Shown here in pieces: positions 12,970-50,220 of a stretch of DNA of 64,000 nt. The DNA is taken from assembly GCA_002070105.1 (NCBI GenBank), contig MWCQ01000008.1:1-64000 (forward strand), written 5' to 3'. This DNA is from Firmicutes bacterium ADurb.Bin193. Its GTDB lineage: Bacteria > Bacillota > Clostridia > Monoglobales > Firm-18. The position numbers and the translations under genes are program-made. Below the pieces are notes generated by a model. It made no database searches and was not told the DNA's origin. It saw only the letters and a program-made list of their open reading frames with translations. Positions within the stretch are counted from its first letter, which is position 1. Every line of letters begins with the position of its first letter.

Positions 12970-15615
12970 ATGAAAAAGGTTAAAAGTGTTTTATCTGTTG
13001 TACTTATGCTTTCCCTTATGGTTTTTAATGTGGGCGTATGGGACATGCCCACCGTGTCGGCGGCACCGAACTACGATTGGGATGCCCAGAGGAATCTGCC
13101 GGATGGTAGTTCAAAAAAGGTGGGCTTTACCAGTCTTGAGATTAATGAGTTGGAAAGCCGATACAACACCCTTCTAAGCGGAAAACTGGATCTTTTAACC
13201 TTGAATGACGGAACAAAAGTCACCAGCACCCAACAGTGGGAGGCATTGCGCCGCCCCGAACTTCTTTATATCATGCGGCAAAATGAACATGGGTTTGCGC
13301 CCGAAAGCGCGCGTGGCGTCGAGTACGGGCCCGAATACGCCGACAATCTGGACATAACCTTTGATGTTGTAAGTCAGGAGACAATCACTGTCAACAGTAA
13401 ACCAGTCATCAGAAAGAAAGTAAATATTATTATTCAAGGACCTTACGATGCGTACATTGACGGGTCGGACAGGGACAAAACAGATCATGACCCCGTTACC
13501 ATCCGACTGACGCTATGTATTCCCGCATCAAATCCCAACCCGCCTGTGATACTGTATATTAACAACGGTTCAGCGGGTCGTGCCAATGAAACCAGCGCAT
13601 CCAGTTGGCCGGTAGACGATATGACAAGCCGCGGCTACGCCGGGGCAATATTCCATTATGACGATGTGGCATACGACACATCCCACGGCGACAGCCTCAG
13701 CCCCTGGCGTTACAGGAACGGCGTATTCGCCGCTTTTGAAAACTATACATATTCAACTCCGCTCGGTCAGCCTGCCAAAGTTCAGGAACGCCCGCCCAAC
13801 GCATGGGGTGAGGTTGCCGCTTGGGCATGGGGCGCCAGCCGATGTATGGACTATTTCGAACAGCTCGATTCGGGTGTAAACTCCAAGCAGGCGGCAGTTG
13901 TCGGGGTTTCCCGCGGTGGCAAAACCGCTCTTTGGGCGGGTGCCTCGGATGACCGATTCGCAATGACTATCGGCGACAGTTCGGGCTGCAACGGTGCGGC
14001 TATTTATCACGGCAAGGCTGTCGTCAGCGGAGCTCTTATTAACGGTAAGCAGGAAGGAAATTGTCATATTGTAAAGGTCAAAAACAATCAGTCTATGTGG
14101 TTTTCCTACAACCTTATAAAAGACCCTGCAATCGGTACGACGGCGCAATCTGCCCGCGCGTATCAGGACACTATGGAGTTTGACCAGCATATGATGCTGT
14201 CTTTAGTCGCACCCCGTCTTTTATACATTCAAAGCTCCGCGAATGACAACGATGGCGGTAATCCGCCGTCGGAGTTTTTGGGCGCCGCTTCGGTAACGCC
14301 GGTATATGATTTGTATAATCTGTCCTCGCTGGGGGTTCCCGCCACCAAGGAGAGCTTTAATGCCAATGTCGGTAGTTACTTTATGGGCGACGGCGGCCCC
14401 GATGCCCTCAAGACCGGACGGGTGGGCTATCATATGCGCGAAGGCCTGCATTCGATAAACAGGGTCGATTACAACCATTTTATGAATTTTGCGGATCTTC
14501 ATATAGCCGAAGTGTTTGCCGAGCCGATTGCAAAGAGTAAGAGTGTTGCCATGGATGAAATAGCACCGGTTGATATTACTCTTGACTATACCGAAGGCAA
14601 CCGCCCCGGTCCCTACACGGTGTCTATTGTTGACCAGCCCTCGCACGGCACTCTTACCGGAAGCTACCCGCACTTTACCTATACGCCCGGACCAACTTTT
14701 ACAAAGACCGATAGCTTTACCTGGAAGGTCAATGACGGAAGCGCGGATTCGAACACGGCAATGGTTGCTATTACTTATTATGACGGCAGTAACTCGGCGG
14801 AATTCGATTCGTTCAACATATCCGCGGGCAAAGTCAAAGGCGTTAGTATCAAAAACACTGCGCCCGTAGATGTAACAGGCAACCTGTTTGTTGCTTTGTA
14901 TAACGATGATGGCGCCCTTGTATCCGTAAATGTTGCTCAAAAAACGCTTGAGAGATATTTTGACTGGGTCCTGCCGCTTGATATCGATATCGGGGATGCT
15001 AAAACAATCAGAGCATACTTCTGGAACGACCTTTTAAGTCCCCTTGCTTCGGATACGCTCGTCTATAATGTGCCGAGCGCGACGGAGGGTTTAATAGATA
15101 AACAAAGTCTGTGGATGAACACGGGCAAAGGCATCAGCAATGTAACAATAGCTAATGAGGCTTTTGATGTGGGAGTTCCTTTATATAATGCAGGAGCCAC
15201 AGTAAGTTCGACAGCCCTTGCGGAAGCTGTTCCAGATATTCTTAAGGGCGGCGTGCTGATAAGAACCGACAACCTTGATAACCCTACGAAAGCGAAATAC
15301 TACCCCGCTAATCTGGGGACAGAGACCGCTATAAAATTCACCGTTACACAGGCCGTAACAGTATATTTAGCGGTTCCGTACTCTAATACTCAAGGACCTA
15401 ATGTCGATCATAGCACTCTTCCCGCATGGATGTCGAGCGGCGGCTGGGCCGCTGTAAATGCCGGCGACGATACAATGCAAGGCAATGGCGCTTCGTACAA
15501 GCTATATTTTAAGACATATAATGCAGGTGCTGAAGTCAGCCTGGGGTGCACATTCCCGCCGATTGGAAGTAAAACCCCCAGCACCTATGTAGTAATAATC
15601 AAGCCGCAAAATTAA
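12970..15615 (+). CDS. Secreted CE15-like glucuronoyl esterase with Ig-like and C-terminal modules (copy 1)
   Basis: An 881-residue exported protein. ATG 12970 is preferred over an upstream TTG because CGGAGGTG lies 11 bp before it and the signal peptide (M-K-K-V-K, hydrophobic core, V-S-A-A cleavage region) then starts properly. The catalytic domain (about 40-530) carries W-A-W-G-A-S-R and nucleophile motif G-V-S-R-G-G-K (Ser314), the signature of carbohydrate esterase family 15, which cuts esters between glucuronoxylan and lignin. An Ig-like domain follows (G-T-L-T-G, then F-T-Y-T-P-G), then a beta module also seen in the LRR protein at 34753, then a C-terminal domain of about 190 residues. 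A second copy follows 320 bp downstream. Substrate is inferred from the family. Confidence 0.82.
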   Translation: MKKVKSVLSVVLMLSLMVFNVGVWDMPTVSAAPNYDWDAQRNLPDGSSKKVGFTSLEINELESRYNTLLSGKLDLLTLNDGTKVTSTQQWEALRRPELLYIMRQNEHGFAPESARGVEYGPEYADNLDITFDVVSQETITVNSKPVIRKKVNIIIQGPYDAYIDGSDRDKTDHDPVTIRLTLCIPASNPNPPVILYINNGSAGRANETSASSWPVDDMTSRGYAGAIFHYDDVAYDTSHGDSLSPWRYRNGVFAAFENYTYSTPLGQPAKVQERPPNAWGEVAAWAWGASRCMDYFEQLDSGVNSKQAAVVGVSRGGKTALWAGASDDRFAMTIGDSSGCNGAAIYHGKAVVSGALINGKQEGNCHIVKVKNNQSMWFSYNLIKDPAIGTTAQSARAYQDTMEFDQHMMLSLVAPRLLYIQSSANDNDGGNPPSEFLGAASVTPVYDLYNLSSLGVPATKESFNANVGSYFMGDGGPDALKTGRVGYHMREGLHSINRVDYNHFMNFADLHIAEVFAEPIAKSKSVAMDEIAPVDITLDYTEGNRPGPYTVSIVDQPSHGTLTGSYPHFTYTPGPTFTKTDSFTWKVNDGSADSNTAMVAITYYDGSNSAEFDSFNISAGKVKGVSIKNTAPVDVTGNLFVALYNDDGALVSVNVAQKTLERYFDWVLPLDIDIGDAKTIRAYFWNDLLSPLASDTLVYNVPSATEGLIDKQSLWMNTGKGISNVTIANEAFDVGVPLYNAGATVSSTALAEAVPDILKGGVLIRTDNLDNPTKAKYYPANLGTETAIKFTVTQAVTVYLAVPYSNTQGPNVDHSTLPAWMSSGGWAAVNAGDDTMQGNGASYKLYFKTYNAGAEVSLGCTFPPIGSKTPSTYVVIIKPQN

Positions 15616-34752: not shown

Positions 34753-37167
34753 ATGATGAAAAAAATTATATCCATTGCATTGGCGGCGGTTATTCTTGTA
34801 GGAATTTCGGGTTTTGTTCCCGCATTTGAAGAAAAAGCGTATGCAGATACTGAAGGTGATTATACCTATACCGTTTGGGCCGATAAGGCGACCATTACAA
34901 ATTTCGATTCTTCCGTAAGCGGCGAAATCACAATTCCGTCTACATTAGGGGGGTATCCCGTTATCGCTATCGGAAAGAATGCATTCAGACTCTGCTCCAA
35001 CCTTACAAGCATTGTTATACCCCATGGCGTAGAATCCATCGGAGAAAACGCATTTGAAAGATGCACAAAACTTGCAAGCATAATTATACCCGATAGCGTA
35101 ACAGCTATAAACCGAAATGCGTTTTTATATTGCAAAAGCCTTACAAACATCAATATACCCTACAGTGTGATAAGTATCGGAACTTATGTGTTTGATTATT
35201 GTGATAGTCTTACCGCCATAAATGTAGAGTCGGACAATCCGCTATACTGCAGTGAAGACGGTATTCTGTTTGATAAAAACAAGACCATTCTTATCCGATG
35301 CCCCGAAATGAAAACGGGCGATTACACCGTTCCCGACTCTGTTACAAAAATTGAACCTCATGCTTTTTCAACATGTAACAGCCTTGAAAACATATCAATA
35401 CCCAAAAGTGTATCGAATATCGGAACCAGTACATTTTATCATTGCAACGGGTTGCTTGCAATCAATGTGAGTGAGCAGAATCCGGCATATAGCAGTGAAG
35501 GCGAAGTTCTATTCAATAAAAACAAAAGCACTCTTATACAGTGTCCGGGAGGAAAAGCAGGGGCATACACCATTCCCCCAAGCGTAACAACCATTACCGA
35601 CCATGCGTTCAGTTATTGCTCCGCACTCACAAGCATAACAATACCCGATGGCGTAACAAGCATTGCCGACTATGCGTTCAGTTATTGCTCCGCGCTCACA
35701 GGCATAACAATACCCGAAGGCGTCACAAGTATCGAAGATCGTGTGTTTTTAGCCTGCACAAGCCTTAATAGTATTGTCATACCTAAAGGAATTACAAATA
35801 TTCAATTCAGCGCGTTTGACGATTGTGAAAATTTAACCGCATTTGTTGTAGACGAACAAAATACTTTATACAGCAGTGAAGACGGGGTTTTGTTTGATAA
35901 AACCAAGAGCATCCTAAAACTATGCCCGATAGGTAAATCGGGAGAATACGCCGTTCCCGACTTTGTAGCAACCATAGGACTGAATGCATTCAAAGGATGC
36001 TTCAAACTTGAAAGCATCTATATAAACGACAATGTTGCAACCATCGGCATGAGTGCGTTTGCAAGCTGCACCGGCCTTAAAAGTGTTAGAATATCGAGTA
36101 ATGTCGAAATTATTCCAAATAATGCGTTTGTAGATTGCACCGGCCTTATAAGTATAGTCATACCTGAGGGAGTCACACAGATATCTTACAAAGCGTTTTT
36201 AGGATGCACAGGCCTCACAAGCGTGACATTACCCTCCACCCTAACATTTATCGACAACAATGTGTTTGAAGATTGTATAAGTCTTACAAGCATAACAATA
36301 CCCAATGGAGTTACAATTCTTGATGAAAGTTTGTTTTTGAATTGTAAAAGCCTTACAAGCGTAACGATACCAAATAGTGTTACAACTATTGAAATGAGTG
36401 CGTTTGAAGGCTGTGAAAGCCTTACAAGCATAACGATACCAGAAAGCGTTACATTTATAAATAGCTTAGCATTTCGTGGTTGCAGTAGCCTTGAAAGCAT
36501 AATTATACCAGATAGCGTGAAAGGTTTCGGCAGCTATGCATTCTCAAATTGCACCGGTCTAAAAAGCGTAACGCTGCCCTCCGGCTTGAAGAGTATCAAT
36601 AATGGTTTGTTTCTTTCTTGCACAAGTCTTGAAAGAATAGTTTTACCTGACAGCGTTACAACCATTAAACCATCTGGATTTTCCAAATGCAGCGGTCTTA
36701 AAAGCATAGTTATACCGGACAGTGTAACAAGCATTTCAGACACTGCGTTTTCCAGTTGCCCCGCTGATTTAACCATTTACGGAAATGCAGGTTCATTTGC
36801 GCAGACATTTGCGACTGACAACGGAATTTTATTTGTGTCACCCGCTTCGCCCTATGATTTCGGGGTTTATATAACCTCCGCCGTATACAATGAGGAAAAA
36901 GGGCGGGCGGATGTATCCGTTTTGATACACAATGCAGAGGTTCAGGCGGCGGACCTTAAACTTAATCTTGCAATATTTGATTCCGACGGCAGGCTTGTAA
37001 AGGTTGCAGTATATGATGTCCCGCTTTCGGAAACACCGGGTGGCATACTGGATAAATCAATATCATTCTCATATTCCGCCGACACGGAATACTGTATAAA
37101 AGCGTTTTTATGGGATGGCTTTAATACGCTTACGCCTGTTTCAGCATCGGATTATTATGATATTTAA
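34753..37167 (+). CDS. BspA-like leucine-rich-repeat surface protein
   Basis: An 804-residue exported protein with a signal peptide (M-M-K-K-I-I-S-I-A, A-Y-A-D cleavage region). Residues about 35-690 are LRR_5 repeats of about 23 residues with the phrase L-T-S-I-T-I-P-x-x-V-T-x-I-x-x-x-A-F, interrupted three times by units containing Y-S-S-E-D-G-V-L-F-D-K. The last 100 residues form a beta module that resembles one in the two CE15-like esterases (L-x-V-A-L-Y-x-D-D-G-x-L-V, then K-A-F-L-W-D). No sortase signal or transmembrane anchor. Likely adhesion or surface binding. GGGGGTTTTAAG precedes the start. Confidence 0.87.
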   Translation: MMKKIISIALAAVILVGISGFVPAFEEKAYADTEGDYTYTVWADKATITNFDSSVSGEITIPSTLGGYPVIAIGKNAFRLCSNLTSIVIPHGVESIGENAFERCTKLASIIIPDSVTAINRNAFLYCKSLTNINIPYSVISIGTYVFDYCDSLTAINVESDNPLYCSEDGILFDKNKTILIRCPEMKTGDYTVPDSVTKIEPHAFSTCNSLENISIPKSVSNIGTSTFYHCNGLLAINVSEQNPAYSSEGEVLFNKNKSTLIQCPGGKAGAYTIPPSVTTITDHAFSYCSALTSITIPDGVTSIADYAFSYCSALTGITIPEGVTSIEDRVFLACTSLNSIVIPKGITNIQFSAFDDCENLTAFVVDEQNTLYSSEDGVLFDKTKSILKLCPIGKSGEYAVPDFVATIGLNAFKGCFKLESIYINDNVATIGMSAFASCTGLKSVRISSNVEIIPNNAFVDCTGLISIVIPEGVTQISYKAFLGCTGLTSVTLPSTLTFIDNNVFEDCISLTSITIPNGVTILDESLFLNCKSLTSVTIPNSVTTIEMSAFEGCESLTSITIPESVTFINSLAFRGCSSLESIIIPDSVKGFGSYAFSNCTGLKSVTLPSGLKSINNGLFLSCTSLERIVLPDSVTTIKPSGFSKCSGLKSIVIPDSVTSISDTAFSSCPADLTIYGNAGSFAQTFATDNGILFVSPASPYDFGVYITSAVYNEEKGRADVSVLIHNAEVQAADLKLNLAIFDSDGRLVKVAVYDVPLSETPGGILDKSISFSYSADTEYCIKAFLWDGFNTLTPVSASDYYDI

Positions 37168-39248: not shown

Positions 39249-39324
39249 AACTTGCGGAAAATTGCGCAGATTTTGATAACATAAAAACGGACAAACCTGT
39301 ATAAATATAATTGAGGTGATAAAT

Positions 39325-40224
39325 TTGTCCGCAAAAGAGATTATATTAAAAAACCTGCCCGAAAAAATAAGAGAACTCACCAAAAACGAAAACTTTGAAG
39401 AGCTTGAGGAGATCCGCCTTCGTTCAAACAGGCCTGTTATTCTGTCATATCACAGAGGAATAAAAAGGCTTGCGCACACGGCATCGCAAAGCGAAATCGA
39501 ACAGACGCTTCAGATTATAAGCGGGGCATCGGTTTATGCGTATATCGAAGAAATCAAAAACTGTTTTATCACCCTTGAGGGCGGTCACAGGGTAGGGCTT
39601 TGCGGCACAACAGTTGTAAATGAGGGGCAAATTCAAAACCTTATCCGGATTAGCGGAATAAACTTTCGCATAGCAAGGCAGGTTAAAGGCGCGGCGGACG
39701 AAATTATGCCCTTTGTATTTAATAATACCGTTCAAAACACGCTTATTATCTCGCCTCCGCAGTGCGGCAAGACAACAATAATCCGCGACCTTGCGAGAAG
39801 GCTCGGACAGAATTTTAAGGTTTCGATTATGGACGAGCGCGGCGAAATTGCCGCCATGTACCGTGGTGCGCCTTCGCACGATATCGGCGAGATGACCGAT
39901 GTTTTGGATTTGTGTCCTAAATCCATAGGTATTCCTCTTGTACTTAGGAGTATGTCGCCAGATCTTATAATAACCGATGAAATCGCCCACTGCGACATTG
40001 AGGCAATTAAACAGGCACTGTCGTGCGGGGTTAAAATAATCGCAACCGCGCACGGTGACAGCATTGAGCAGGTCGTAAAGCGCATAGGGCTTGAGCCGCT
40101 TATGGACGAGCTTGGCTGTATCATAACACTAAGCCGCCGAAACGGTCCGGGAACGGTTGAGCAGATAAGGCAAAGCCCAAAATTTGTCGGACAAAGCACT
40201 TCGTTTTTACACAAAATTAAATGA
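39325..40224 (+). CDS. spoIIIAA: Stage III sporulation protein AA (secretion-type ATPase)
   Basis: 299 residues from TTG 39325, placed eight bases after GAGGTGAT; the upstream GTG lies inside that ribosome binding site. AAA ATPase with Walker A P-P-Q-C-G-K-T-T and Walker B L-I-I-T-D-E-I; related to type II/IV secretion ATPases. It powers the SpoIIIA-SpoIIQ channel from the mother-cell side. First gene of the complete spoIIIAA-AH operon. A sigma-E promoter is expected but I could not place one with confidence. Confidence 0.95.
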   Translation: MSAKEIILKNLPEKIRELTKNENFEELEEIRLRSNRPVILSYHRGIKRLAHTASQSEIEQTLQIISGASVYAYIEEIKNCFITLEGGHRVGLCGTTVVNEGQIQNLIRISGINFRIARQVKGAADEIMPFVFNNTVQNTLIISPPQCGKTTIIRDLARRLGQNFKVSIMDERGEIAAMYRGAPSHDIGEMTDVLDLCPKSIGIPLVLRSMSPDLIITDEIAHCDIEAIKQALSCGVKIIATAHGDSIEQVVKRIGLEPLMDELGCIITLSRRNGPGTVEQIRQSPKFVGQSTSFLHKIK

Positions 40225-40299
40225 TAATTTATGTTCTAAATGTGGACAAAGTATAATAATATATCACAAGAGGACAAACCACAAAGGAGAGAAAGATAT

Positions 40300-40818
40300 A
40301 TGCTAATAAAACTTATAGGTTGTGCGATTATTATTGCTTGCACCGCTAAAATCGGCTTTGACGAGGCGGGAAAATTCACCAAACGGGTAAGAGAAATCCG
40401 GGAGCTTCAAGGCGCGCTTATCGCTTTAAAGGGCGAAATCAGCTTTTGCAGGACGCCTCTTGCACAGGCGCTTATAAAAACAGGGCAAAGGCTTTCTTAT
40501 CCCGTTTCGGAGCTTTTCAAAAAAGCGGGTACTGCTCTTAATTCGGGGGGAATAACCGCAAAGGATGCATGGGACGATGCGCTTTTTTCCATTGATAAAA
40601 AGCTGTCGTTAAAAAGTGAGGAGATTTATATTTTAAGCTCCTTCGGAAGCCTCCTGGGAACCGGTGATGCGGCAGGGCAGATTGAAAATATCGAGCTTGC
40701 GGCATCCAAGCTTATTATGTGCGAGCGCAATGCGACGGAGGACGAAAGAAAGTTTGTGCGGCTTTACCGGGGCCTCGGCGTAGCCTGCGGGGTTTTTATA
40801 TCGATACTTTTTTTATAA
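40300..40818 (+). CDS. spoIIIAB: Stage III sporulation protein AB
   Basis: 172 residues from ATG 40300 with AAAGGAGAG upstream; an in-frame ATG 60 bp earlier lacks a site. N-terminal membrane segment, then a helical domain with L-K-G-E-I-S-F-C-R-T-P-L, and a second hydrophobic segment at the C-terminus. Resembles GspF-like components of secretion systems. Length matches B. subtilis SpoIIIAB (171). Confidence 0.93.
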   Translation: MLIKLIGCAIIIACTAKIGFDEAGKFTKRVREIRELQGALIALKGEISFCRTPLAQALIKTGQRLSYPVSELFKKAGTALNSGGITAKDAWDDALFSIDKKLSLKSEEIYILSSFGSLLGTGDAAGQIENIELAASKLIMCERNATEDERKFVRLYRGLGVACGVFISILFL

Positions 40819-40842
40819 CTTATATAGCGGAGGAAAAATGAT

Positions 40843-41043
40843 ATGGGAACGGGTGTTGACCTTATCTTCAAAATTGCGGGAATCGGAATAATAACCATTA
40901 TTCTTTTTCAGCTTCTCAAAAACTCCAAGCATGAGGAGCTTGCCCTTATGATTTCGATTACGGGACTTGTGGTGGTTTTACTTATTCTTATTCCCGAGAT
41001 TAACCTTCTTTTTACGACGGTTAAAACCCTTTTCGGATTATGA
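40843..41043 (+). CDS. spoIIIAC: Stage III sporulation protein AC
   Basis: A 66-residue protein with two membrane helices (about 5-25 and 35-58), starting M-G-T-G-V-D-L-I-F-K-I-A-G-I-G. Overlaps spoIIIAD by 4 bp (ATGA). Confidence 0.93.
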   Translation: MGTGVDLIFKIAGIGIITIILFQLLKNSKHEELALMISITGLVVVLLILIPEINLLFTTVKTLFGL

Positions 41044-41423
41044 TTATCAAAATTATTGCTTTGGGGCTTGCCGGCGCAATTATCTCCGTTTTGCTTCGGC
41101 AATACAAAAACGAATACTCCTCCGCTATCGCAATCGCCTTTTGTGTCATTATATTTGTGCTTTTGAAGGACGATATTGCCGCGGTTTTTGATACACTGCG
41201 ATCATATATACAAAGGCTGGGCATTGATACGGAGTACATAATCATTCTTATAAAAATAATCGGCATTGCCTACCTTACCCAGCTTGCAGCCTCAATATGC
41301 GAGGACGCGGGTGAAAAGGCGATTGCCATGAAAATAGAGTTTGCGGGACGGCTTACCATAATTCTGATGTCCGCTCCGCTAATGTTCGCAATACTTAATC
41401 TGATTACGGGGATACTGCCATGA
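41040..41423 (+). CDS. spoIIIAD: Stage III sporulation protein AD
   Basis: A 127-residue polytopic membrane protein (M-I-I-K-I-I-A-L-G-L-A-G; A-Y-L-T-Q-L-A-A-S-I-C-E-D-A-G near 85). The gene overlaps both neighbours by 4 bp. Confidence 0.93.
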   Translation: MIIKIIALGLAGAIISVLLRQYKNEYSSAIAIAFCVIIFVLLKDDIAAVFDTLRSYIQRLGIDTEYIIILIKIIGIAYLTQLAASICEDAGEKAIAMKIEFAGRLTIILMSAPLMFAILNLITGILP

Positions 41424-42583
41424 AAAAATTTGCGGTGATTATGCTTCTTTTGCTTTTTGTTCCGCTTGCTGCTTATGCTTTCGGGGCGGAGGAAATTATC
41501 GGCAGTCAGATGGAAAGCCGGGAAATTTCCGACCTTTCGATTGCTCTTGACAAGGTAAAAAGAAATGACTTCGGCGAGATAATACCGGATTTTAATTTAA
41601 AAAGCGCAGCACGGTCTGTTGCGGGCGGAGGTTGGGAATGGGATATTCCCTCTATTATGAAAAGGGCGACAAATTTCTTTTTCAAAGAGCTTTTTGCCAG
41701 CATGAGGATTATGGCAAGCCTTGTCCTTCTCGCCCTCTTTAGCGCGCTTTCGGAAAACCTAAGGCAAAGCTTCGGCAAGGACGGTATTGGAAACGCATCG
41801 TTTTTCGCCTGCTTCTTCCTTATCGCAAGCTTTGCCGTCAGAGCGTTTTTGGGTTCGCTTTCCGCCGCGCAGGCGGTAATTGACGATATAACCGTTTTTA
41901 TAACGGCGCTTATACCCACAACCCTGACCCTTCTCGCAACAAGCGGAGCGGTCATAAGCGCGGGGATATTTCATCCCGTTTTAACGCTTTGCGTGGAGGT
42001 TGTATCGCTTTCGGTACGGAATGTTATAATTCCGCTTATCCTTATATCCACAGCCCTGTCCCTTGCAAACGGTATAAGCGAAAAGGCCGGTGTGGGAAGG
42101 CTTGCAAAAATTTTTAAAACAGCCGTAAAATGGATTCTCGGTATAATGCTTACCGTATTCGCAGGGGTTGTCGCAATTCAAAGCCTTGCCGCACCCGCAC
42201 TTGACGGAATATCCGTAAAAACGGCAAGGTTTGCGGTGGGGAATTTCGTCCCCGTTGTGGGGAATGTCCTTGCGGAATCGGTTGACCTTGCCTTCGGCTG
42301 CGGCGCAATCATCAAAAACGCCGTCGGCGTATCGGGGCTTATCGCCATACTTTCGATATGCGCCGCCCCGCTTTTAAGGCTTTTGTCGCAGGCATTTATG
42401 CTTTCGCTTACCGCCGCGGTGATTGAGCCTGTTTCAGATGAGCGCATTGCGGGAATTATCTCGGAAACGGGTGAGGCGGTTATGACGCTTTTTGTGACGG
42501 TACTTATTATAACCTTTATGTTTATCATCAATATTGCGATTATAGTAGGCGCGGGCAACACCGCAACGGTGTTCGGGAGGTGA
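41420..42583 (+). CDS. spoIIIAE: Stage III sporulation protein AE
   Basis: A 387-residue membrane protein with a signal-like N-terminus, an extracytoplasmic stretch (about 22-85) and about eight transmembrane helices. It shows the conserved L-T-L-L-A-T-S-G-A and A-A-P-A-L-D-G-I-S-V-K-T segments. Likely core permease-like part of the channel. Confidence 0.94.
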   Translation: MKKFAVIMLLLLFVPLAAYAFGAEEIIGSQMESREISDLSIALDKVKRNDFGEIIPDFNLKSAARSVAGGGWEWDIPSIMKRATNFFFKELFASMRIMASLVLLALFSALSENLRQSFGKDGIGNASFFACFFLIASFAVRAFLGSLSAAQAVIDDITVFITALIPTTLTLLATSGAVISAGIFHPVLTLCVEVVSLSVRNVIIPLILISTALSLANGISEKAGVGRLAKIFKTAVKWILGIMLTVFAGVVAIQSLAAPALDGISVKTARFAVGNFVPVVGNVLAESVDLAFGCGAIIKNAVGVSGLIAILSICAAPLLRLLSQAFMLSLTAAVIEPVSDERIAGIISETGEAVMTLFVTVLIITFMFIINIAIIVGAGNTATVFGR

Positions 42584-42590
42584 TAAAGGC

Positions 42591-42989
42591 TTGGAATATA
42601 TCTCATCCTGGGCGGGCGCACTTATTACGGTAGTCGTTCTGGCAAGTTTTATAGAGCTTTTTCTCCCATCAGGGAGCATTAAAAAATATGTTTCCTTCGC
42701 CTCCGGGCTTATAATAATCATTTTGATTATAAAACCGATTACCGACTTTAAGGGCATTAGCCTTCCCAATATAAAAGCACAGACCTACACGGAGTACAGC
42801 GCGGCGTCGGTCCATGAGATTTATGTCAAAAGGCTTGAGGATAATGTAGAAAATGCGCTTGGGATTTCAAATGTTGAAATATCCGTTAACCCAGAGAATT
42901 TAACGGAGATAATATATGTAAAATCCGCGGTAAAAAGAAAAGAAATAGCCGAGTATTTGGGAATACCGCAAAGCAGGGTAGGTGATTGA
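42591..42989 (+). CDS. spoIIIAF: Stage III sporulation protein AF, short form
   Basis: 132 residues, TTG start after GGGAGGTGA. Two N-terminal membrane helices (about 8-27 and 33-50), then an extracellular ring-building-motif-like domain (about 75-132, R-L-E-D-N-V-E-N-A-L-G). B. subtilis SpoIIIAF has 206 residues. Here the linker is short and the C-terminus stops before the last expected strand of the domain. Overlaps the spoIIIAG region by a few bases at most. Confidence 0.88.
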   Translation: MEYISSWAGALITVVVLASFIELFLPSGSIKKYVSFASGLIIIILIIKPITDFKGISLPNIKAQTYTEYSAASVHEIYVKRLEDNVENALGISNVEISVNPENLTEIIYVKSAVKRKEIAEYLGIPQSRVGD

Positions 42990-42993
42990 TATT

Positions 42994-43347
42994 TTGGGAC
43001 TGAAAGAGCTTTCGGAAAAGTATTTAAGCGGGAAAAGCACAAAGCTTATTGCCGCTATTCTGGCGGCATGTGTTCTACTTGTCGCCTCCTCCTCTTTTTC
43101 GGGCGCAAACAAAACAGACAATACCGCGCTTGAAAAACGCCTTTCTCATATCCTAAGCGAGATAGACGGCGTTGAGAGCGTAACCGTTATGATAAACGGA
43201 AAAAATAATCAAGCGGAGGGAGTGATAATCGTTGCACAGGGGGCTGAAAATCCCGCCGTAAGAAAAAAAATAAGCGATGCGGCTATTGCGGCGCTTGGGG
43301 TCAGTTCGCACAAGGTTGAAGTATTTTCAAAAAAAGGAGGAAAATAA
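42994..43347 (+). CDS. spoIIIAG: Stage III sporulation protein AG, minimal form without the beta-insertion
   Basis: 117 residues from TTG 42994, with GGTAGGTGAT upstream; a GTG at 42982 that overlaps spoIIIAF is the alternative (121 residues). One transmembrane helix (about 20-38), a linker of about 10 residues, then a ring-building-motif domain: L-E-K-R-L-S-H-I-L-S-E-I-D-G-V, V-T-V-M-I-N-G, G-V-I-I-V-A-Q-G-A, S-S-H-K-V-E-V-F. B. subtilis SpoIIIAG is 229 residues and has some 60 residues between the second and third of these elements, forming the beta-triangle of the ring. Here only about six residues (K-N-N-Q-A-E) connect them. The frame is open and the flanking genes are intact, so this is not a frameshift remnant. 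Confidence 0.9.
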   Translation: MGLKELSEKYLSGKSTKLIAAILAACVLLVASSSFSGANKTDNTALEKRLSHILSEIDGVESVTVMINGKNNQAEGVIIVAQGAENPAVRKKISDAAIAALGVSSHKVEVFSKKGGK

Positions 43348-43350
43348 ATA

Positions 43351-43866
43351 ATGAAAAAATTAAATCTTAAGGTATTCGGTCACTTCGGAAGACGGCAGGC
43401 AACACTTGTGTCACTTGTCATACTTATAGCCATCGCAGGGTACATAAACATTTCGAACAAGCAAGATGAATACATTCCAACATCGGGCGAGGTGTTAATC
43501 GAGGAGCCTGCGGCGGCGGACGATTACTTCACGCTTTCCCGCCTTGAAAAGGAAAAGAGCAGAAGCGCGGCTATGGATGTATACAGAGAGATTACCGAGA
43601 GACCCGACAGCAGCGCACAGGCAAAGAGCGAAGCACAGGCAAGCCTTGTTGCGGCGGCAAAGGCAATCGAAACCGAGGCATCGCTTGAGGGGCTTATAAA
43701 GGCAAAGGGCTTTGAGGATTCGGTTGTCTACATTAACGGGCAGAGCGCAAATATTGTGATAAAAACCATTGGCTTGACACCAGCGCAGGCGGCACAGATC
43801 AAGGACCTTGTTATCGAAAATGCGGGGATTGCTCCCGACAAAATTAAAATTGTTGAAATAAAATAG
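43351..43866 (+). CDS. spoIIIAH: Stage III sporulation protein AH
   Basis: A 171-residue protein with one N-terminal membrane helix (R-R-Q-A-T-L-V-S-L-V-I-L-I-A-I-A-G-Y), an acidic/Ala-rich linker and a C-terminal YscJ/FliF-like ring-building domain (about 100-171). It pairs with SpoIIQ across the intermembrane space. B. subtilis SpoIIIAH has 218 residues, so the linker is shorter here. AAAGGAGGAAA precedes the ATG. Confidence 0.93.
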   Translation: MKKLNLKVFGHFGRRQATLVSLVILIAIAGYINISNKQDEYIPTSGEVLIEEPAAADDYFTLSRLEKEKSRSAAMDVYREITERPDSSAQAKSEAQASLVAAAKAIETEASLEGLIKAKGFEDSVVYINGQSANIVIKTIGLTPAQAAQIKDLVIENAGIAPDKIKIVEIK

Positions 43867-47877: not shown

Positions 47878-50220
47878 TTATTCCGAAAGCTTTTCCACTT
47901 CTTTTATATAGATGTCGCAAAGCTCGTTTGCAAACTCCTCGTTTTTCCCCTCCGAAATCACCCTGCAAATCGGTTTTTCTCCATGCGGTATAACCAAAAC
48001 CCAGCCCTTGTCGTTAATTATCTTAACGCCCTCCTCAAGCTCTATTTTTTCACCGTTTTTACCGTATTTCGTGGCAATCGATCGAATAACGCTTCCCTTC
48101 TTGCCCGTTTCGCACAAAACCTCTTTTTCGACTATGTGTATTTCGGGGATTTCGCTCGTAAGGTCCGAAAGCATAACACCCTCCGCGCTTAAAACCGAAC
48201 AAATTTTTGCAAGCGCATAAACGGCATCATACATAAGCCTGAACTGGACGGGGTTATGCTCCTGCATACAGGACATCATACACGCCTTACCCGTTTTACA
48301 CCGCACAACCGAGGCTCCGAGCTTGTTCGCGATTGCATCAATCGCCGCCGAACCCGAAAGAGGCGCGGCAACCGTTTTGCTTCCCGATTTTATTGCAATA
48401 TATGAGGCAAGGGCGGAGTATTTTTCTCCCGATATTGTCCGTCCAAGCTCATCCACCAGCACAAGCCGCTCGGCGTGGTCGTCGATAATCGCGGTTATTG
48501 TTCCCTTCCCGCCCGTGGGGGAAACGGTTGCGCCAAGCTCGGAAATAAGCTCCGCCGCCTTGTTGTTACCTTCTATACATATATTCATCTTTAACTTTGC
48601 ATTTATTTCGTTTAGGATTTCCCGCATATAATAAAGGTTATAGTCATAAAGCGTTGTAACCTTTTGTATTTCGGAGGGCTCGCACCGCATAAAATCCTCA
48701 CGCATAAAAAGTCCCTCTATCTTCCGTTCCGCATCGCGCGAAATGTCGATTCCCTTTTTGTCCAAAAAGGTTATGGAAAGCCGTGTTTCGTTCCCGCCTT
48801 CATACAAAGATATGTGGATTCCACCGTCAAGACCGTAAAACGGAATTGCGCGCCTTGATACGGGGAGCGTCACCGTACCCAAGTCAAAAACCCTTACGCC
48901 CGACGACAGCATACCCGATATAAGCGCACTTCTTATCATATCGAGCGCACCGCCGCCTCCGCTTATCGAAAGCTTTGAGTTTTTATTGGACGCGCCGAAG
49001 GACGCACCCATTCGAGTTGCGAATTCGGGTGTTACATCAACATTAATCTCGCCCGTAACGCCGTTGTCGCCGAACAGCCTTCTGGAAAAATTGTCGCCCC
49101 AGATCAGATTTGCGCTGACCGTTGTTTCGTTTTCGATGTTTTTCTCCGGCCATATCTTGATGTTGTTTCTTATCTCGCACATCTCGCCTATGTGAGTCTT
49201 TTCGCCGACCACGGAGTTTTCGAGAACCGTTGAATGTGCGCCCAAATATGCTCCGTCGGCGAGTATGCTTCCTCTTACCTGTGCGGATTTGCCTATATAT
49301 ATGTTCCTTTGCATGACCGACTTCTTTACCGATGCCCCCTCGGAAATCCTGCAATTTTCACCGATTACGCTGTACGGCAGAATTTTTGCGCCGCTTCTTA
49401 TTACCGCTCCGCTTCCGATATAACAGGGCGGGGTAATCAGGGTGTTCGGCTCGATAACGGTGTTTTCTCCGGTCATAATTCTGTCCTTTGACACGGCGTT
49501 TGTATTAACATTCACCTTTTGGTCGAGTATGTCGAAATGGCAACGGCGGTATGCGGCAATATCCCCGATATCGCACCAATAGCCCTTTGCGACATATCCG
49601 TAAAGCGCCGCGTCGTCCGAAAGCATTTTAGGATAGAGATCCTTGCTGAAATCATACTGCTCATGGGGCGGAATCCTGTCAAGCACAGAGGGATTCAGTA
49701 CATATATGCCCGTGTTGGCGGTGTCGGAGAAAACCTCGCTCCAGCTCGGCTTTTCCAAAAACCGCACAATCCTGCCCGAATCGTCTGTCACAACAATACC
49801 GTACTCCAAAGGGTTTCTGACGGAGGTGAGGACGAGCGTCGCCTCCGCATTTTTATTCTTGTGAAAATCCATTGCGGCGTTTAAATCAATGTCCGTAAGG
49901 CAGTCGCCGCTTACGATTATAAAGGGCTCATCCAAAAACGCTTCGGCATTTTTAACGCTTCCGGCTGTACCCAGAGGCGTCTGTTCCACAAAGTAGGTAA
50001 GATTAACCCCAAACCTTTTTCCGTCGCCGAAATATTCGGTTATGATATGGGGCATATACATCAGTGTTACGGCTATGTCGCTGATTCCCGCATTTTTCAT
50101 CAGCTCTATTATATACTCCATAACGGGCTTGCCCATCACATCTATCATGGGCTTAGGCTTTCCGCAGGTCAACGGACGAAGTCGCGTCCCCTCGCCGCCG
50201 GCCATAATTAAACCCTTCAT
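47878..50220 (-). CDS. Nucleotidyltransferase / phosphomannomutase-like fusion protein
   Basis: A 780-residue, three-part protein. Residues 1-235 form a sugar-nucleotide transferase domain (G-L-I-M-A-G-G-E-G-T-R-L-R-P-L, K-P-M). Residues about 250-370 are left-handed beta-helix hexapeptide repeats. Residues 380-780 follow the phosphohexomutase fold, but the phosphoserine loop (T-A-S-H-N) is replaced by H-I-S-L-Y-E-G-G-N and the metal loop D-G-D-A-D-R by D-D-H-A-E-R. The mutase part is therefore probably inactive or altered. Annotated relatives are called mannose-1-phosphate guanylyltransferase/phosphomannomutase. A role in surface polysaccharide or glycogen-related metabolism is inferred. Confidence 0.87.
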   Translation of the reverse strand: MKGLIMAGGEGTRLRPLTCGKPKPMIDVMGKPVMEYIIELMKNAGISDIAVTLMYMPHIITEYFGDGKRFGVNLTYFVEQTPLGTAGSVKNAEAFLDEPFIIVSGDCLTDIDLNAAMDFHKNKNAEATLVLTSVRNPLEYGIVVTDDSGRIVRFLEKPSWSEVFSDTANTGIYVLNPSVLDRIPPHEQYDFSKDLYPKMLSDDAALYGYVAKGYWCDIGDIAAYRRCHFDILDQKVNVNTNAVSKDRIMTGENTVIEPNTLITPPCYIGSGAVIRSGAKILPYSVIGENCRISEGASVKKSVMQRNIYIGKSAQVRGSILADGAYLGAHSTVLENSVVGEKTHIGEMCEIRNNIKIWPEKNIENETTVSANLIWGDNFSRRLFGDNGVTGEINVDVTPEFATRMGASFGASNKNSKLSISGGGGALDMIRSALISGMLSSGVRVFDLGTVTLPVSRRAIPFYGLDGGIHISLYEGGNETRLSITFLDKKGIDISRDAERKIEGLFMREDFMRCEPSEIQKVTTLYDYNLYYMREILNEINAKLKMNICIEGNNKAAELISELGATVSPTGGKGTITAIIDDHAERLVLVDELGRTISGEKYSALASYIAIKSGSKTVAAPLSGSAAIDAIANKLGASVVRCKTGKACMMSCMQEHNPVQFRLMYDAVYALAKICSVLSAEGVMLSDLTSEIPEIHIVEKEVLCETGKKGSVIRSIATKYGKNGEKIELEEGVKIINDKGWVLVIPHGEKPICRVISEGKNEEFANELCDIYIKEVEKLSE

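Follow-up and report, generated by a model that had tools for sequence, protein, structure and literature searches.

The role of the A-Q ("feeding tube") complex is debated, and the SpoIIIAG barrel is a main structural argument for a conduit. In the published descriptions, SpoIIIAG is a split ring-building motif (RBM) with an insert between strands 1 and 2 (PMC4768692), the insert forms most of the SpoIIIAG cup (PMC6934232), and the protein forms a 30-subunit assembly that includes a cylindrical barrel (PMC8092281). The window (the whole 64,000-nucleotide stretch analysed) carries a spoIIIA operon in which SpoIIIAG lacks this insert. The preliminary description proposed that the channel of this lineage is either built differently or does not need the barrel.

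Gene context and identity

The eight-gene spoIIIA operon is intact at 39316-43866, and profile searches recover its genes in the order AA, AB, AC, AD, AE, AF, AG, AH:

39316..40224, + strand: spoIIIAA, ATPase (TIGR02858, 282 bits, over the cut-off)
40240..40818, + strand: spoIIIAB (TIGR02833, 141.5 bits)
40843..41043, + strand: spoIIIAC (TIGR02848, 67.4 bits, over the cut-off)
41040..41423, + strand: spoIIIAD (TIGR02849, 83.1 bits)
41420..42583, + strand: spoIIIAE (TIGR02829, 288 bits, over the cut-off)
42591..42989, + strand: spoIIIAF, shortened, 132 aa (TIGR02896, 1.2e-14; PF09581, over the cut-off; lengths compared)
42982..43347, + strand: spoIIIAG, minimal form, 121 aa (TIGR02830, E 1.6e-16, profile positions 87-144 absent; AlphaFold model)
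43195..43218, + strand: turn NGKNNQAE, 8 residues (72-79 of 121), in place of the barrel-forming insertion (alignment of 100+ SpoIIIAG homologues)
43351..43866, + strand: spoIIIAH, ordinary length, 171 aa (PF12685, 129.6 bits)

Two other genes of the window are recorded here in passing. An 804-aa BspA-type leucine-rich repeat protein with a signal peptide-like start (34753-37167) directly precedes a GntR/ABC transporter set and the spoIIIA operon, and a fusion of mannose-1-phosphate guanylyltransferase-like and phosphoglucosamine mutase-like domains (47878-50220) lies near glmM and glmS.

The spoIIIAG gene occupies its usual place, with spoIIIAF on one side and spoIIIAH on the other. The preliminary description located the reading frame correctly and began it at TTG 42994 (117 aa). 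That start is possible, but GTG 42982 (121 aa) is preferred because the V-I-S/D-I start upstream of the TTG is common to relatives; the choice does not affect the insertion site. The start of spoIIIAG overlaps spoIIIAF by 8 nt and spoIIIAH starts 3 nt past its stop, which excludes a missed piece of the insertion nearby. As the preliminary description recognised, a longer second SpoIIIAG, or a missed start with the insertion elsewhere, would undo its case. A profile search of the host genome (2.63 Mb, 99.8% complete; E<=10) finds no second SpoIIIAG, the flanking genes leave no room for a missing piece, and six more genomes of the family (five other genera) are alike.

The TIGR02830 profile (186 positions) matches the protein in two halves, 55-86 and 145-186, and the 58 positions between them are missing, in agreement with the loss of about 60 residues first described. 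Because these positions are absent, the score (60.3 bits) falls below the curated cut-off (147.7), which most full-length SpoIIIAG homologues in the class do not reach either. VTVMI and GVIIVAQG are spaced by NGKNNQAE, so that the linker between RBM strands 1 and 2 has 8 residues, compared with 36-76 in most relatives. The short turn of the preliminary description is thus real, whereas its length of six residues holds only if counted after N-G.

Among solved structures, the top phmmer match is B. subtilis SpoIIIAG (5wc3, E 5e-6). Profile searches give no SctJ/FliF match, and the likeness to that family lies in the fold only. A SpoIIIAH paralogue is rejected as an identity, PF12685 matching the next gene and not the spoIIIAG reading frame. 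The protein shares with B. subtilis SpoIIIAG its operon place between AF and AH, the N-terminal anchor, the RBM and the motif G-V-[IL]-[IV]-V-A-x-G-A; it differs in lacking the strand 1-2 insertion (most of the cup/barrel), in a shorter linker from anchor to RBM and in its score below the curated cut-off. Since homologue linkers span 3-76 residues, the insertion, known from the B. subtilis protein whose structure is solved, is not taken as defining orthology. The gene is a genuine spoIIIAG whose product has no strand 1-strand 2 insertion, leaving an N-terminal membrane anchor and one plain ring-building motif.

Predicted structure

The window protein was modelled with AlphaFold2 as a single chain, from an alignment with nine homologues (10 sequences). 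The model of the window protein (H44-59, E65-74, E77-86, H91-105, E112-116) is a canonical alpha-beta-beta-alpha-beta RBM (residues 44-116) closed by a short hairpin, with pLDDT of about 88 in the core and 72 over the whole protein. The ring-building helices and strands are thus kept, as first described, and the RBM is continuous in sequence. The RBM is preceded by a hydrophobic helix at about residues 20-37, which probably serves as the membrane anchor. A full-length Formimonas SpoIIIAG, modelled as a control from the same sequences, has the same core plus four strands in the insertion (110-113, 115-127, 133-145, 156-160).

In the Foldseek search with the minimal model, PrgK domain 2 ranks first and the matches also include FliF, EscJ, 5wc3 and SpoIIIAF; every E-value is weak (1e-3 to 1e-2). 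For the full-length model the nearest structure is 5wc3 (1.6e-10), followed by FliF S-ring/collar structures. This shift in nearest neighbour implies that loss of the insertion turns a split RBM of the FliF RBM3 type into a plain one. The split-RBM plan is described as common to full-length SpoIIIAG and to FliF RBM3 of the S-ring with collar (PMC4768692, PMC8092281). FliF RBM3 bears a collar-building insertion, and the window protein has none. In this it resembles domain 2 of PrgK/EscJ and RBM2 of FliF (SctJ family), which rank high as structural matches and are likewise bare alpha-beta-beta-alpha-beta RBMs without a collar. In contrast to those proteins, which belong to another family and to type III secretion, the window protein has a single RBM, not two, and belongs to sporulation. 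The evidence supports the conclusion that a B. subtilis-type barrel is impossible to build from this SpoIIIAG.

Conservation in the family and recurrence across the class

The order was sampled with 51 genomes; the organisms are probably uncultured and nearly all the genomes probably metagenome-assembled. In the window's family, each of the seven genomes with SpoIIIAG (six genera) has a linker of 8-9 residues, in a reading frame of 111-130 aa within the same operon; one more genome of the family (84% complete) has no spoIIIAG match. One relative, 51% identical, is the "Clostridiales bacterium" metagenome-assembled genome Ct408_bin46. The linker has 18 residues in the sister family f2 and 54-76 in four other families of the order. 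Between genera of the window's family, SpoIIIAG has a mean protein identity of 51%, with differences of 0.32 at codon positions 1+2 and 0.60 at position 3, similar to SpoIIIAE of the same family (52%, 0.30 and 0.65). These values fit purifying selection on minimal SpoIIIAG, in that constraint is visible while its strength is not readable from third positions near saturation.

The class survey covered 392 genomes, 295 of them with a TIGR02830 match, and weak matches were inspected. SpoIIIAG was found through this profile, which makes the count of minimal lineages a minimum. Alignment across the class, which the preliminary description had called for, yields a graded series of linkers: 3 residues in family f7; 8-9 in f1, f81 and f68; 18-26 in f2, f14, parts of f16 and f52, and f61; 36-54 in many families; and 56-76 in Bacillus, Paenibacillus, Halanaerobiaceae, Formimonas and many others. 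Three families besides the window's (f7, f68 and f81) therefore have the minimal form, and their eight-gene operon is kept, within the detection limits of profile searches. Two further cases are set apart. A SpoIIIAG fragment of 99 aa in one genome (G042, locus L054, 3824-4100) stops at a contig end and is not the minimal form; families f56 and f45 (loci L103, L109), which are without GerM, have linkers of 40-54 residues and a strongly diverged RBM.

On a SpoIIIAA-AE tree (57 rows), no fewer than 4 changes are required for the minimal state and no fewer than 10 for the reduced state (30 residues or less). The direction is loss, because outgroup linkers are long. When all minimal rows are constrained to group together, the cost is 237 log units and the grouping is rejected (p-AU 5e-6; 25-row set, LG+G4). 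Multiple origins of minimal SpoIIIAG are secure; the figure of 4 changes is approximate, given some long deep branches. Insertion loss is recurrent and graded and is not confined to one lineage. The choice drawn in the preliminary description, a channel built differently or a barrel not needed, was a fair one, but its restriction to this lineage does not hold, since four families are minimal and several are partly reduced. The surveyed part of the literature naming SpoIIIAG holds no description of such a loss, and an earlier mention is possible.

Other components of the A-Q complex

The host genome encodes SigG (479 bits, over the cut-off) and SpoIVA (773 bits), both also present in most relatives, and SigG is over the cut-off in most genomes of the window's family. 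SpoIIID is found in the host genome and has no match in several of the genomes searched. A second SpoIIID-like match lies on host contig 17 at about 13987-14211 (L150) amid phage-type genes (primase-like protein, DNA polymerase I, helicase). The lineages with minimal SpoIIIAG are presumed spore formers.

The likely SpoIIQ is a 235-aa M23 protein on contig 3 at about 41120-41827 (L219, 3121-3828), which has a membrane helix and the motif TMQDWRVHKGIDI and whose zinc-ligand motifs are intact; its match to SpoIIQ (6e-15) is no better than that to generic M23 peptidases. In some Clostridia spoIIQ adjoins spoIIID; the SpoIIQ-like gene of the host genome does not, and its neighbours are genes resembling citrate synthase and rsmG.

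None of the 18 genomes examined in the order has GerM (PF10646), whether the insertion is present or not; in a second sample, drawn mostly from across the class, 62 of 80 genomes have it. C. difficile and many Clostridia are described as lacking it (PMC6934232, PMC7924749). Co-loss of GerM with the insertion is rejected: GerM is absent in 3/4 minimal families and in 10/21 others (Fisher p 0.59).

SpoIIIAF is shortened as well: counted from the L-P motif to the C-terminus, it has 107 residues in the window's family, compared with 145 in f4 and 182 in Bacillus. The soluble part of the window's SpoIIIAF (42591-42989) seems to stop after the second RBM helix, apparently without strand 3. Family medians for SpoIIIAF and SpoIIIAG correlate over 27 lineages (rho 0.57, p 0.002), and phylogenetically independent pairs, which have little power, show no effect; coupled shortening is therefore only suggested. 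SpoIIIAH is of ordinary length in the family (170-177 aa). Transfer of the barrel to SpoIIIAH or SpoIIQ is rejected, neither being longer, and none of the A-Q parts checked for compensation has an added domain.

Trimming of the A-Q complex is described elsewhere: C. difficile lacks GerM, and Lysinibacillus/Planococcaceae lack some spoIIIA genes (PMC6934232, PMC3533761, PMC7924749). Those cases, like the present one, show a complex whose parts are not constant across spore formers. They differ in that whole genes are lost there, whereas here one structural module is lost inside a retained gene.

Explanations for the missing barrel

The minimal protein is probably a SpoIIIAG reduced to a ring subunit of the PrgK/FliF RBM2 type that acts in the A-Q complex without a barrel; its reduction is read from sequence and model, and ring formation, function and dispensability of the barrel follow by inference. 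Like PrgK domain 2 or FliF RBM2, it would use its conserved RBM faces to assemble a flat ring, here in the membrane of the mother cell. This ring would dock with SpoIIIAH, the SpoIIQ-like M23 protein and the SpoIIIAB-AE membrane part. Together with SpoIIIAA-AF, SpoIIIAH and the SpoIIQ-like protein, minimal SpoIIIAG may serve as a platform or gasket, and the complex would work without a vertical barrel like that of B. subtilis. The wider proposition, that the barrel is an optional elaboration and that at least four spore-former lineages have a working A-Q complex on a bare RBM ring, is a tentative one, held with somewhat less than even confidence.

The channel might instead be rebuilt, with a barrel or gate supplied by a different protein, either encoded outside the operon or acquired by the lineage. 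B. subtilis SpoIIIAG is reported to be essential, and its ring is regarded as belonging to a conduit (PMC6934232, PMC12720343), and the platform is already different here, since the whole order lacks GerM (18 genomes examined). However, the absence of GerM is older than the insertion loss in the order and shows no association with it across families. The shorter SpoIIIAF, ordinary SpoIIIAH and ordinary 235-aa M23 protein also speak against replacement, and the A-Q parts checked, in a search for new sporulation proteins that was not exhaustive, contain no candidate barrel protein. Rebuilding is therefore unlikely; with no added domain in these parts, SpoIIIAF short and GerM missing, a dispensable barrel is favoured over a replaced one. 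Less probable still for these lineages is relaxed selection, in which sporulation is being lost or curtailed and the insertion decayed as transport came to matter less. Genomes of f7, f68 and f81 are small (1.5-1.8 Mb), SigG scores are weak in f68 and f81 (312-352 bits), and SpoIIID goes unmatched in several genomes. The window's family, by contrast, keeps SigG over the cut-off in most genomes, an intact SpoIVA and all eight spoIIIA genes, and its SpoIIIAG is as conserved as the operon neighbours; decay is more plausible in f68 and f81, with their weak SigG and small genomes. An annotation or assembly artefact (a missed piece, a wrong start, a frameshift or a full-length second copy elsewhere) has almost no probability, the gene being single-copy, without intergenic space around it and of the same form in seven independent assemblies from six genera.

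Implications

Given the linker variation, the curated TIGR02830 cut-off misses SpoIIIAG genes of this kind. The repeated natural loss of the barrel module alone, with the rest of the machine kept and intermediates of 18-54 residues, amounts to a ready experiment. According to a 2025 study, SpoIIQ and SpoIIIAH can do without direct contact and an H-Q channel is judged infeasible, while a channel of other SpoIIIA proteins is left possible (PMC12720343). Minimal SpoIIIAG fits views in which the A-Q complex is no less a platform or ratchet than a tube, and the barrel may not be needed for making a spore. If the barrel is indeed optional, a barrel conduit would be unnecessary for the essential function of the complex, and that function may lie in scaffolding, adhesion or gating and not in movement through a tube.
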